This document shows, piece after piece, positions 42,035 through 48,579 of a DNA stretch of 57,510 nucleotides. Each line of letters starts with the position of its first letter. The stretch's first letter is position 1. Both the position numbers and the translations under genes were made by a program. The stretch is from positions 1-57,510 of the forward strand of contig CANKQY010000006.1 of NCBI GenBank assembly GCA_947485745.1. Reading direction: 5' to 3'. The stretch is from Bacteroidota bacterium (GTDB lineage Bacteria; Bacteroidota; Bacteroidia; UKL13-3). The notes beneath the pieces are model-generated. The model was not told the origin of the DNA, ran no database searches, and worked only from the letters and a program-made list of their open reading frames with translations.

Positions 42035-43453
42035 CTACTTATGAAGAACCATTAATTTCTTGGTAATTTTAGAACGGCCAAAATCAAACTCCACATAATA
42101 AGTGCCATTTTCAAAACCACTTACATCCAATTTATAATAGCTTGCATTTACCTCAGCTGTAAATACTTCTTTTCCATTATCGGTAAGCACTTTAATTTTA
42201 TTAAATGGCCATGTTTTAATTTCAGTATAGTCGGAAGCCGGGTTAGGAACCAAGTTTGTATTTCTATTTAACCTACCCTCAAACTCTTTTAAATTTGCAG
42301 GGTTCACATCATTGAATAAATATTGATAAGCCTGAGCAAATTCACGTTTCCAATACCATTCACTATGCGCACCATCGGCATGTATAATTACTGAGGAATT
42401 GTATGCTAAAAATCCTTTGCGCCTAAGCATATCATCATATTTATTGATGTTACTTACCATAGTAGCACTTTCATTTGAACCAGCAACATAATAGGCCAAA
42501 ATTCCAGGATCGATTGCAGCCTTTTGAGCAAAATCGTATAATGAATCACTGATATACAAAGCAGGTGAAAATAAACCTACTTTACCAAATACCTGTGGAT
42601 TTGATAAAGCAGCGAATAGCGAAATATTAGCCCCTAAAGAACTTCCTGCTATAGCAGTGTGCTTTGGATCGGAGTAGGTTCTATAAACAGAATCAATAAA
42701 TGGCTTCAAGGTTTGAGCCAAAAAATTTACATACGCTTTACCCTCTCCACTTCCATATTGAGGGTGCCCGTAAGGACTATATTCATTGATACGCTTTACC
42801 CCACCATTATCAATACCTACTATTATACACCCCAAATCACCTGATTTTTCTAATTTCACCAACGATTCATCTACGCCCCATTCGCCAGAAAAAGAGGTTT
42901 TGGCATCAAACAAATTCTGCCCGTCTTGCATGTACATCACAGGATATCTTTTGGTGGTTGTATTTTTGTAATCAGATGGCAGATAAATCCATACTCTCCT
43001 GCTCCTATTTAACTGAGGCATGTAAAATGAATTGGAGATTATTGAAACATTGTTAAGCGCTGTAGAACCTGTATCTGCCGGACTATTCAGCAAATCTATC
43101 CATCCCGCAATATTGTTTTCAATGCTTAAATTTGCACTATAGGTAAAAGTTCTATTGGCAATATTTGCGCCAGCACTAGTTGATTCAACTTTTGGCCAAC
43201 TACCCCGAGTAAATTTATATTGGGCTTCACCATTTCTGCTTGGCAAGGTAATAGTATAGCTTGAGCCTGTTTTAACAAGTTTATACGTCGCATCACCTGG
43301 GTTCCAATTATTGAAATCCCCTGCAATATAAATATCATCTGAAATTGGCGTATTGGCTGGTAAATTATTAACAGTAATGGTAACTTGTGCAAATGAAACC
43401 TGCATGAATAATGACATAAAAACAAGTTGAAACCCTAATAATTTATTTTTCAT
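42035..43453 (-). CDS. Secreted esterase with N-terminal CBM48/E-set-like domain and T9SS tail
   Basis: A 472-aa exported multidomain protein. Signal peptide at 1-22; an N-terminal immunoglobulin-like domain of carbohydrate-binding type (IYIAGDFNNWNPGDATYKL, YKFTRGSW); an esterase D-like alpha/beta hydrolase with RYPVMYMQDGQNLF, the nucleophile in AGSSLGANISL and a probable catalytic His in HADGAHSEWYW; and a C-terminal T9SS sorting domain (NPASDYTEI to ITKKLMVLHK). It is a paralogue of the esterase at 16.3-17.2 kb, with extra domains. Carbohydrate-ester hydrolysis on the cell surface is an inference. It diverges from the redoxin gene. Confidence 0.86.
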   Translation of the reverse strand: MKNKLLGFQLVFMSLFMQVSFAQVTITVNNLPANTPISDDIYIAGDFNNWNPGDATYKLVKTGSSYTITLPSRNGEAQYKFTRGSWPKVESTSAGANIANRTFTYSANLSIENNIAGWIDLLNSPADTGSTALNNVSIISNSFYMPQLNRSRRVWIYLPSDYKNTTTKRYPVMYMQDGQNLFDAKTSFSGEWGVDESLVKLEKSGDLGCIIVGIDNGGVKRINEYSPYGHPQYGSGEGKAYVNFLAQTLKPFIDSVYRTYSDPKHTAIAGSSLGANISLFAALSNPQVFGKVGLFSPALYISDSLYDFAQKAAIDPGILAYYVAGSNESATMVSNINKYDDMLRRKGFLAYNSSVIIHADGAHSEWYWKREFAQAYQYLFNDVNPANLKEFEGRLNRNTNLVPNPASDYTEIKTWPFNKIKVLTDNGKEVFTAEVNASYYKLDVSGFENGTYYVEFDFGRSKITKKLMVLHK

Positions 43454-43511
43454 TTAGCTAACATTTGAATTTATTACGAACTTAAGCATTACATTCCTAT
43501 TTTTGCCTTTC

Positions 43512-44066
43512 ATGCAAGCAATATTATTGTTTATTCAACTCTTTCTTATCAGCGCATCCAATCCGCTTGAGAAGATTCCCTTAACAGATTTAATGGGCAA
43601 ACTAACCTATATTCAATTAAGCGCGGCAAGCAAAGGAACAGTCATTTATTTCCTGTCTCCAGAATGTCCTTTATGCCAGAGCTATTCCTTAACCATCAAA
43701 GAAATTGAAATAGCTTATTCAAAAAAAGGATTTCAATTTTATGCCATTATTCCTGGAAAAGAATTTACAAAAAACGAGGTAATTATTTTTAAAAATAAAT
43801 ATAAACTATCAGCGCTTCCATTTCTGTTTGATCCAAACCTAGCGTTAGCAAAATATACCAAAGCAAGCATTACTCCTGAAGTGTTTGTTTATGCGCCATC
43901 AGGGCAAAAAGTATACAATGGCAGAATCGACAACTGGGCCTATGAACTGAGCAAAAAAAGAACAGTAATAACTGAAAATGACCTCAGAAATGTTCTTAAA
44001 AAATTGGATCAAAACGTTTCCATAAAACCTTACCAAACCAAAGCAGTAGGATGTTTTATCAATTAA
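43512..44066 (+). CDS. Exported redoxin (thioredoxin-fold) protein
   Basis: A thioredoxin-like protein of about 184 aa started at the ATG at 43512 (signal peptide MQAILLFIQLFLISASN); the ORF-track TTG is 3 codons earlier. A CPLC redox motif lies in YFLSPECPLCQSY. The rest follows an AhpC/TlpA-like fold, ending KAVGCFIN. Redoxin modules of this kind are often fused to or followed by a cytochrome c / copper-monooxygenase module in other bacteria; here they are adjacent genes overlapping by 16 bp. A TATTTTTG -7 box at 43498 would make the mRNA nearly leaderless. Confidence 0.82.
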   Translation: MQAILLFIQLFLISASNPLEKIPLTDLMGKLTYIQLSAASKGTVIYFLSPECPLCQSYSLTIKEIEIAYSKKGFQFYAIIPGKEFTKNEVIIFKNKYKLSALPFLFDPNLALAKYTKASITPEVFVYAPSGQKVYNGRIDNWAYELSKKRTVITENDLRNVLKKLDQNVSIKPYQTKAVGCFIN

Positions 44067-45415
44067 GTAAAATAACCTTATTCGCATGCTTATTAGCAAT
44101 GCTTGCATGTAATAACAACTCCAATATTCCTAAGGAAGACGAAGCTGTTTTATTTGCAGAACACATAGCTCCTATAATCTATACCAATTGCAGCAAATGC
44201 CATAGCCAAGATGGTGCTGCTCCATTTCCACTTTTGAGTTTCCAAGACATTGCCAGCAAGGCTAAATTGGTGGCCTATGTTACAGAAAAAAGGTTAATGC
44301 CACCATGGCCTGCCGACCCAACATACACGCACTTTGCCAATGAAACGTATCTAAGCGCTGAACAAATACAATTAATCCAAAGATGGGCTGCAGGCAATTG
44401 TTTACCCGGCGACACTGCCTCCTTGGTTCAGCCCGAAAATTTATTAAAATCATTGAATTTAGGGAAGCCCGACCTAATAGTAAAAATGCCAAAACCTATC
44501 AAGGTTCCAGGCAATAATACCGATTTGTTTATGGTGGTAAAAGTACCTTTTGAATTGCCACAAGATACCTTCATCAAAGCCATTGAATTTGTGCCTGGAA
44601 AAAAGCGTTTGGTACACCACATGAATGCGCATATCATTCAGTTTGAACCTAACAAAAAATCCAATTTATGGAGCGGTCAATTTGCCGTGAACCAAGATCA
44701 AACAAAGAGTGAAACCATACACAAAGAGCTCAATTTATTGAACGACGATGGCAGCTATGCACCCATGACACCTTCTGTTTGCAATTACTTACCAGGCTCT
44801 CAATTTAGTTTGTATCCTGAGGAAATTGGTGGTTATAAAATTGGCAAAAAGAATGCATTTTACTTAAACGACATGCATTTTGGTCCAAGTGCAATTGACG
44901 AAGTTGATAGCTCTTATTTTAAAATTTACTATGCAGACAAGGCTCCAAAAAGGCCAGTGGCAGAATTCCAAATTGGCACCTTAGGATTGGCTCCAGTTGA
45001 GCCTAAACTAATTGTTCCAGCTAGAGAAGTAAAGAAGTTTACCATTGATTTTCGAGTGCCAGCCGACATCTCAATTCTAACCATTGTGCCACATATGCAC
45101 CTCATTGGCAAAACCTATTTAGCCTATGCCATTAAACCAAGCGGAGATACCATTCGCTTAATACGCATCAACAATTGGGACTTTAGGTGGCAATATTTCT
45201 ATCAACCCAAAACACTCCTAAAAATCCCAAGAGGCTCGGTTATTCATGTAGAAGGAACATTTGATAATACCGCCAATAACCCCAACAACCCATTTAGTCC
45301 GCCAAGGGAAATTGCAGAAAAAAATGGCAGCATGAAAACTACGGATGAAATGTTTCAGCTTATTGTCACGTACTTGCCTTGGCAGAATGGGGATGAGCAG
45401 ATTTCGCAGGAATAG
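44051..45415 (+). CDS. Cytochrome c / PHM-like copper monooxygenase lipoprotein
   Basis: A 454-aa putative lipoprotein (Cys20, AMLACN). A cytochrome c-type heme site CSKCH (47-51), with a candidate distal Met83 in RLMPPW, precedes a domain that keeps the copper-ligand set of peptidylglycine/dopamine monooxygenases: His189-His190 in LVHHM, His276 in NDMHFGP, His348/His350 in PHMHLIG and Met434 in TDEMFQL, in the same order as the CuH and CuM ligands of PHM. It overlaps the upstream redoxin gene by 16 bp. Oxidation or hydroxylation of an unknown substrate is a reasonable inference. Confidence 0.82.
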   Translation: MFYQLSKITLFACLLAMLACNNNSNIPKEDEAVLFAEHIAPIIYTNCSKCHSQDGAAPFPLLSFQDIASKAKLVAYVTEKRLMPPWPADPTYTHFANETYLSAEQIQLIQRWAAGNCLPGDTASLVQPENLLKSLNLGKPDLIVKMPKPIKVPGNNTDLFMVVKVPFELPQDTFIKAIEFVPGKKRLVHHMNAHIIQFEPNKKSNLWSGQFAVNQDQTKSETIHKELNLLNDDGSYAPMTPSVCNYLPGSQFSLYPEEIGGYKIGKKNAFYLNDMHFGPSAIDEVDSSYFKIYYADKAPKRPVAEFQIGTLGLAPVEPKLIVPAREVKKFTIDFRVPADISILTIVPHMHLIGKTYLAYAIKPSGDTIRLIRINNWDFRWQYFYQPKTLLKIPRGSVIHVEGTFDNTANNPNNPFSPPREIAEKNGSMKTTDEMFQLIVTYLPWQNGDEQISQE

Positions 45416-45455: not shown

Positions 45456-45503
45456 GCAGGTCATTGCTTGTACATCGTACGTCACCCTGAGCCTGCCGAA
45501 GGG

Positions 45504-45633
45504 CGGTCACCCTGAGCCTATTACCGGTAACTGAGCTTGTCGAAGTACGGTCACCCTGAGCCTATTACCGGTCACTGAGCCTGTCGAAGTGCGGTCACTG
45601 AGCCTATTACCGGTCACTGAGCCTGTCGAAGTG
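45504..45633. repeat. 44-bp tandem repeats (forward-oriented)
   Basis: Units start at 45504, 45548 and 45592 (44, 44 and 42 bp), each cggtcaccctgagcctatta ccggt(c/a)actgagc(c/t)tgtcgaagt(g/a). They share GAGCCTGTCGAAG with the array at the window start. The spacers are conserved within units, so this is not a CRISPR array. Confidence 0.9.
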
Positions 45634-45690
45634 TTGTGCGGGAGTGCAGAAATTTATCTGTTAAGGAATAGCTGGTGCTTTCATTGAAGC

Positions 45691-45800
45691 AGGCTTCGAC
45701 AAGCTCAGCCACCGGTTATTCGACAAGCTCAGCCATCGGTGCTTCGACAAGCTCAGCCGCCGGTTATTCGACAAGCTCGGACACCGGTTATTCCATAAGC
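45691..45800. repeat. 24-bp tandem repeats in reverse orientation
   Basis: Units ttcgacaagctcagccaccg plus gtta begin at 45695, 45719, 45743, 45767 and a degenerate one at 45791: an exact 24-bp period. They are reverse complements of the GAGCTTGTCGAA core in the forward array, so the two arrays could pair. The surrounding 548-bp spacer (45416-45963) holds no gene. Confidence 0.9.
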
Positions 45801-45872
45801 TAAAACACCCATCAAATAATATTCAACAGGCGTTTGGTTCAAACCGAAAAATTAACGAGAGAATAGAAAAAA

Positions 45873-45963: not shown

Positions 45964-46383
45964 TTAACAATATTCTTCGAAAGCTGCTTTCAAGTTTTGT
46001 GAAATCATTTCAGCGCTGCGTCCTTCAATGTTGTGGCGTTCGATGAAATGTACCAAATTGCCATCTTTAAATAAGGCTATGGCAGGAGATGATGGAGGAT
46101 AAGGCAAAGTGAACTCGCGGGCTCTGGCAACAGCGTCTGCTTCTTGGCCTGCAAATACAGTTAATAATTCGCTTGGCTTTTTTACAGTAGTGTTAATAGC
46201 ATCAATAACACCCGGGCGACAAGTACCAGCGGCACAACCGCAAACACTGTTGAATACCAATAATTGAGTACCTTGTTTGCTGTTCATGGCGTTTTCAACT
46301 TCAGTAGCATTCATCAAAGAAGTAAAACCTACGGTTTCTAATTGTTGTCTCATTGGAGCAACCAACATTTCTGGATATGGCAT
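45964..46383 (-). CDS. BrxA/BrxB-family bacilliredoxin
   Basis: A 139-aa protein of the YphP/YqiW (DUF1094) family. The active-site CGC motif lies in NSVCGCAAGTCRPG (about residues 45-58), with the characteristic N-terminus MPYPEMLVAPMRQQL. Family members reduce mixed disulfides with bacillithiol in organisms that make it; in Bacteroidota the thiol partner is an inference. It is a single gene separated from ahcY by a 194-bp divergent spacer. Confidence 0.9.
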   Translation of the reverse strand: MPYPEMLVAPMRQQLETVGFTSLMNATEVENAMNSKQGTQLLVFNSVCGCAAGTCRPGVIDAINTTVKKPSELLTVFAGQEADAVARAREFTLPYPPSSPAIALFKDGNLVHFIERHNIEGRSAEMISQNLKAAFEEYC

Positions 46384-48111: not shown

Positions 48112-48579
48112 TTACTTCGCGTCTGCAATTACCTTATCTAGTATTTGAAGAAAGGATGCGGCATCATGGTAACCGGCATCTATCATCAATGATTTCTTTT
48201 GCGGATCAATGAAATAGGTGGTTGGAAAACCAGTGCTTTCACCTCTGCTTAATTGTGCAAAGAAATCTCTGGCAGTGAAGGTTTGTCCGTCTATATCGTA
48301 GGTTAAATCTCTGAGCTCAGGATTAAATTTTATGACCACAAAATGCTTGTTCAATTTTTTAATTACCTCTGCATTTGAATAAGTATCCCTATCCATCTTT
48401 TTGCACCAACCACACCAATCTGTATAAGCATCTACCAATACAATTTTCTTTTCTTTAATGGCAGCTGGGTAGCCTTCATTCCACTTATACCATTTTAATT
48501 CATCTGCTTTTGGCTTGGTAAATGAACTCAAAAAAATGAATCCCAATACCATGATAAAAATATTTCTCATTTGCTTCAA
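48112..48579 (-). CDS. Periplasmic thioredoxin-fold protein
   Basis: A 155-aa exported thioredoxin_7-type protein: signal peptide (about 1-24), then YTDWCGWCKKMD with the WCGWCK active site (about residues 58-63) and a cis-Pro region in TGFPTTYFID. It probably acts as a disulfide reductase or isomerase in the envelope. It is transcribed toward ahcY and ends in a shared palindromic terminator region. Nothing adjacent indicates a dedicated partner. Confidence 0.85.
   Translation of the reverse strand: MKQMRNIFIMVLGFIFLSSFTKPKADELKWYKWNEGYPAAIKEKKIVLVDAYTDWCGWCKKMDRDTYSNAEVIKKLNKHFVVIKFNPELRDLTYDIDGQTFTARDFFAQLSRGESTGFPTTYFIDPQKKSLMIDAGYHDAASFLQILDKVIADAK

Follow-up and report, generated by a model that had tools for sequence, protein, structure and literature searches.

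A redoxin gene overlapping the gene of a predicted heme c and PHM/DBH-fold two-copper protein, a conserved and widespread pair in Bacteroidota

The window analysed here, a stretch of 57,510 nucleotides from a Bacteroidota genome, carries on its forward strand two overlapping genes, the first encoding a redoxin and the second a 454-aa protein in which a heme c domain is combined with one resembling peptidylglycine hydroxylase (PHM) and dopamine beta-hydroxylase (DBH). The redoxin open reading frame runs from a TTG codon over positions 43503-44066, and an in-frame ATG at 43512 gives a protein of 184 aa (43512..44066) with a CPLC active site at 43665..43676 (C52 and C55 in the 184-aa numbering, C55 and C58 when counted from the TTG). 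The copper/heme gene occupies 44051..45415 and shares 16 bp with the redoxin frame, its ATG start sitting within the GGA TGT codons (44049..44054) that encode the invariant Gly-Cys in the redoxin's C-terminal GC-x-I end. The same in-frame nesting of the ATG in the Gly-Cys codons recurs in 29 of the 54 loci that have an upstream redoxin, which is consistent with translational coupling of the two genes. A first-pass annotation of this DNA had reported the 16-bp overlap, the CPLC motif and a KAVGCFIN C-terminus of the redoxin, all of which are borne out by the translations, as is every residue number that it gave for the second protein (CxxCH at 47-51, HH at 189-190, H276, H348/H350 and M434).

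The 454-aa protein is a probable lipoprotein, with a signal-like helix at residues 2-19 in the predicted model and a probable lipidation site at Cys20 (44108..44110) that is present in 80 of 83 close homologues. Its heme c domain covers residues ~35-115 and contains the CSKCH motif at residues 47-51 (44189..44203) and, about 30 residues past it, Met83 within LMPPWPADP (44297..44299), a residue that the first-pass annotation had missed and that, judged by class I cytochromes c, is probably the axial heme ligand. The copper domain, residues ~140-454, is predicted to consist of two domains and holds the candidate ligands of two copper sites: H189 and H190 (44615..44620) with H276 (44876..44878) for CuH, and H348-M-H350 (45092..45100) with M434 in TTDEMFQ (45350..45352) for CuM. 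Beyond the ligands, Q381 lies in WDFRWQYFY (45191..45193).

On the opposite strand and divergent from the pair lies a gene (42035-43453) for a putative esterase of PF00756, whose N-terminus is glycogen-binding-like and which ends in a T9SS tail. Genes for related esterases stand next to the copper gene at loci L002, L003, L012, L014, L022 and L023, and more distant ones at L055, L061 and L184; the neighbouring esterase is a possible hint to the substrate. Past the copper gene, positions 45482-45810 hold clustered short repeats, whose copies are 36-48 nt long, with spacings of 42-44 and 24 nt, mutually inverted and built on CTGAGC..GTCGAAG. Farther along, both on the reverse strand, are genes for a bacilliredoxin-like protein (45964-46383, Pfam Disulph_isomer at 195 bits) and for a thioredoxin-like protein with CGWC (48112-48579), whose synteny is seen in close relatives of the window only. 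When neighbourhoods were surveyed, the redoxin alone was linked to the copper gene beyond close relatives; the synteny of the fatty-acid/biotin carboxylase genes and of a bacilliredoxin-SAHH pair belongs to the window's own group.

Conservation of the heme and copper residues is complete. In a non-redundant set of 83 close homologues, C47, C50, H51, M83, H189, H190, H276, H348 and H350 are present in all, and M434 in 82, the exception being one truncated sequence row, whereas the histidines at positions 38, 94, 194, 224 and 399 vary. The pattern extends across Bacteroidota in a set of 112 homologues, made up of these 83 and 29 more, partly close relatives and otherwise paralogues and fusions with identities as low as ~25%: the heme motif, M83 and all five copper histidines are found in 112 of 112, and M434 and Q381 in all 111 sequences that reach them. 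Invariant heme and copper residues beside variable histidines elsewhere are beyond chance, and the earlier proposal that the metal ligands are complete, and not lost at random, thus holds. Further invariant residues of a would-be pocket are the WDFxWQ stretch, the DN at 405-406 and E433. The only cysteines past the signal peptide outside the heme motif, C117 and C244, are both unconserved.

The relation to PHM and DBH became visible through fold comparison only. Searches of PDB chains with the single sequence returned nothing meaningful, the PDB profile search likewise, and there was no match in NCBIfam. In Pfam the window protein falls below the cut-offs for PF03712, Cu2_monoox_C (18.9 bits against 23), and Cytochrome_CBB3 (15.7 bits against 27), and the N-terminal domain, PF01082, was not detected in it. 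Its relatives are more readily recognised: Cu2_monoox_C is present in 65 of 66 members and Cytochrome_CBB3 in 40 of 66, both at E < 0.01, and PF03712 exceeds its cut-off in some, for example in the fusion L163 at 32 bits. The AlphaFold2 model of the protein, built with 66 sequences, has a pLDDT of 88.4 and a pTM of 0.80, and a Foldseek search of the PDB with this model placed human DBH (4zel) first, at E 1.6e-13, 19% identity and probability 1.00, followed by about 28 structures of rat PHM at E 1e-12 to 1e-9, likewise with probability 1.00. The predicted fold is accordingly the two-domain beta fold of the PHM type, with a TM score of up to 0.62 to the target.

A profile alignment to rat PHM, whose sequence we confirmed against PDB chains, matches H189 and H190 with H107 and H108, H276 with H172, H348 and H350 with H242 and H244, Q381 with Q272, and M434 with M314, the last lying in SSDEMCN in PHM. 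This alignment is weak (E ~1e-3), so that the register leans also on the order of the ligands and on their conservation, and the pairing of H189 and H190 is its least independent part, as the aligned run was trimmed to begin just before these two histidines; here too order and invariance carry part of the weight. Taken with the invariance in 112 homologues, the alignment places a three-histidine CuH site and a CuM site of two histidines and one methionine in the order and register of PHM, and the earlier assignment of these residues as ligands of a two-copper monooxygenase is supported by the predicted fold and register. We regard the metal sites of the copper/heme protein as well supported, and from sequence and model the protein would be expected to bind the metals.

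The likeness is one of fold and metal sites and does not extend to the substrate anchors. In PHM, R240, N316 and Y318, positions that we checked in the PDB sequence, hold the peptidyl-glycine substrate. Their counterparts here are V346, Q436 and I438, most homologues likewise have residues other than Arg, Asn and Tyr at these positions, and the conserved disulfides of PHM are absent from the window protein. For these reasons we rejected an identity as a peptidylglycine hydroxylase or peptide-amidating enzyme, and the protein, PHM/DBH-like as it is in fold and metal sites, should not be given that name. Thus it shares with PHM the fold, the six copper ligands in register and a counterpart of Q272, and differs from it in the anchor positions, the missing disulfides, the undetected PF01082 and the added heme c domain. 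DBH, although the best fold match, contains a DOMON domain and takes its electrons from ascorbate, whereas the window protein has an N-terminal heme c domain and is bacterial and probably a lipoprotein. The absence of the PHM anchor residues, along with the lack of a known substrate, would also suit an envelope protein for copper storage or electron transfer that merely retains the metal sites and is not an enzyme, but a complete and invariant CuM site including its Met, with the second-shell Q381 and the invariant pocket residues, exceeds what storage needs, and we think such a role very improbable.

The redoxin has a hydrophobic N-terminus and is probably exported. Its AlphaFold2 model (pLDDT 90.2) has the thioredoxin/peroxiredoxin fold, with 3u5r, 2ywi and 2cvb as the best Foldseek matches at probability 1.00, and profile matches to the same three structures, at 2e-21 to 5e-18, extend through the C-terminal GC-x-I; the Pfam Redoxin score lies just under the cut-off, at 25.7 bits against 26.6. 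Fold, CP motif and GC-x-I tail together assign the protein to a GC-x-I peroxiredoxin-like family. The three structures differ from it in having a single active-site Cys (CPFV/CPYV) and in having been solved as separate proteins, whereas the window redoxin has CPLC and is coupled to the copper/heme gene. Across 50 non-redundant homologues the first Cys of the CPxC motif is kept in 49, with one gap, the second in 41, with Ser in 8, and the Cys of the C-terminal GC in all 50. Since the first Cys and the tail Cys are retained and the second CPxC Cys is not, the essential pair would be the former two, as in those peroxiredoxins whose resolving Cys is C-terminal, and the C-terminal Cys of 2ywi has been named as resolving in a study of a related domain (PMC3091736).

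Such a protein might instead be a maturation factor for the same enzyme, delivering copper in the manner of Sco or reducing the apo-CxxCH in the manner of ResA, and have no part in turnover or protection. ResA structures do occur among its Foldseek matches, it is translated first and coupled to its partner, it is dispensable in many loci, and the CxxCH contains the sole conserved target cysteines in the partner. Yet a Sco copper chaperone would show CxxxC and a distal His, and here the CPLC is a CxxC and the redoxin alignment contains no conserved His. ResA-type chemistry also requires the second CPxC Cys, but 8 of 50 homologues and three of three single-chain fusions (see below) have lost it and kept the C-terminal Cys. 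Furthermore, the genome encodes cytochrome c assembly genes and three Sco-family matches elsewhere than at this locus, so that there is less need for a dedicated maturation factor, and on balance we consider maturation unlikely. Service to a conserved disulfide of the copper domain was likewise considered and rejected, as 20 of 59 copper proteins linked to a redoxin lack any Cys beyond the heme motif.

How firmly the two genes belong together was assessed in a tree of 110 rows, for which the sampling was uneven, the first 80 loci being the best matches, so that the proportions hold for this sample only. A redoxin gene lies directly upstream on the same strand in 54 rows, downstream or divergent in 3 and fused in 2 (L144 and L163); a di-heme CCP_MauG gene lies directly upstream in 6, neither gene is found within 2.5 kb in 40, and 5 are at contig edges. 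The upstream-redoxin state changes 13 times on the tree, yet deep branches repeatedly show the association, T9SS-tailed forms such as L184 among them. The cytochrome c-PHM protein itself has matches in 129 of 296 genomes sampled from the class, at E < 1e-20 with a fusion as query. None of the plasmid records yielded a homologue. Longer paralogues of ~520-550 aa (L140, L147, L154, L171, L172, L180 and L184) have apparent C-terminal T9SS tails, Pfam-confirmed in L140, by which they are probably surface-attached or secreted, and L180 has two cytochrome c-PHM paralogues in tandem. Partial downstream copies that hold the C-terminus of the copper protein only (L022 9937-10116 and G008:C2 ~78873-80572) are apparently decayed tandem duplicates.

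The first-pass annotation had mentioned single-chain fusions of the redoxin, cytochrome c and PHM modules and had described the window pair as a split version of them. Such fusions do exist in Bacteroidota: in addition to L144 and L163, which form one clade on long branches, a third, L183, comes from a different family and lies outside the 110-row tree. No fusion was found among the first 80 genome loci. Two further candidates were discarded, L069 because its upstream part is an unrelated reading frame, and L140, an open frame of 685 aa with the T9SS tail, because the additional N-terminal stretch is something other than a redoxin. All three fusions have the module order of the window pair, redoxin-cytochrome c-PHM, in one polypeptide, keep every ligand and carry the GC-(I/V) motif in the linker; their redoxin active site reads CPMV/CPIV, so that the second CPxC Cys is absent and the first Cys and the GC-(I/V) Cys are kept. 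The direction implied by the word split, however, is probably reversed, as separate genes are much more frequent than fusions among the sampled loci (54 against 3) and spread more widely over the tree, which is unrooted.

The order of modules in the fusions, with the Cys of GC-(I/V) in the linker adjoining the heme domain, and the conserved pairing of the two genes could also mean that the redoxin feeds electrons directly, from a periplasmic thiol reductant through the redoxin to heme c and on to CuH. A transfer from a two-electron thiol to a one-electron heme would be unusual, though, and at ~40% of loci no redoxin is close by. Among 27 genomes that lack an adjacent redoxin, a strong match (>100 bits) occurs elsewhere in only about 7; in most, the GC-x-I redoxins are all distant ones, and in a few no full-tailed one is present. 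Direct feeding by the redoxin therefore strikes us as doubtful. The redoxin-free loci, together with the CCP/MauG gene in another clade, indicate that the redoxin is favoured but dispensable.

In that clade of paralogues (L141 and L148-L152) the same heme-copper protein keeps all its ligands, and its partner is a ~640-aa CCP_MauG protein, not a redoxin. The CCP_MauG gene precedes the cytochrome c-PHM paralogue, in the usual place of the redoxin, in L141 (1852-5134), L148 (1803-5049), L149 (214-3467), L150 (325-3190), L151 (277-3523) and L152 (361-3166); in L149 its CCP_MauG domain scores 149 bits, and the N-terminal half of the partner has no assigned domain. MauG-like enzymes can modify Trp too, and W380, in the WDFxWQ stretch of the copper protein, is an invariant Trp. 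The partner is hence either a redoxin or, in this sister clade, a di-heme protein of the CCP/MauG family, both types coming from peroxide-reacting families. This shared trait would also fit a PHM-like domain that is an H2O2-using peroxygenase, or a peroxide or copper sensor, with the alternating partners tuning the supply of peroxide. PHM and DBH, however, use O2 and a reductant, a heme c domain for electron entry suits the supply of reductant better, and the partners would remove peroxide and not supply it, and we give this peroxide-driven alternative little credence.

The reading that we favour, with moderate confidence, is that the two genes specify an exported redox enzyme, a periplasmic two-copper monooxygenase fed by heme c, together with a peroxiredoxin-like protein dedicated to it, whose task is to deal with peroxide or to keep the monooxygenase reduced. 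As all metal-binding residues are kept in the relatives, the enzyme is probably a bacterial oxygen-activating one supplied by heme and not by vitamin C. In this scheme, drawn by analogy with the animal enzymes, the lipoprotein would unite a PHM/DBH-fold monooxygenase and heme c in one chain; electrons would enter at a His/Met heme (C47, C50, H51 and M83) that takes the place of ascorbate, pass to CuH (H189, H190 and H276), and be consumed at CuM (H348, H350 and M434), where O2 would be activated for the hydroxylation of a C-H bond, presumably in a substrate other than peptidyl-glycine. The redoxin would be a translationally coupled accessory of the GC-x-I peroxiredoxin-like family, acting through its first and C-terminal Cys, and would most likely clear peroxide from uncoupled turnover or hold the copper/heme protein reduced. 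Peroxide handling or protection fits best with the lack of a conserved thiol target in the partner, the pairing of the first Cys with the tail Cys and the di-heme peroxidase-family alternative partner; with ~40% of loci having no redoxin, this role is suggested by analogy, as are the electron path and the O2 chemistry.

The gene pair is a real, well conserved and widespread variant of the known PHM/DBH enzymes. Work on PHM and DBH has dealt almost exclusively with the animal enzymes, for which ascorbate is the electron source and in which the crossing of the electron between the two coppers is a long-standing question. We found no paper on bacterial cytochrome c-PHM proteins in the open-access literature, subscription journals being mostly outside the search, and the protein may have automatically assigned names in public databases. 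More tentatively, the family may represent a widespread bacterial branch of PHM/DBH with built-in heme c instead of ascorbate, interchangeable peroxide-handling partners (a redoxin in cis or trans, or a di-heme peroxidase) and a new substrate; as a relative independent of ascorbate, it might shed light on the origin of the animal enzymes. The alternation of partners between a redoxin, a fused redoxin and a di-heme CCP/MauG protein constitutes a direct genetic test of the purpose of the redoxin. A compact bacterial heme-wired form would offer a spectroscopic handle on electron entry, give insight into a form that works without ascorbate, and add a new set of bacterial oxidations.
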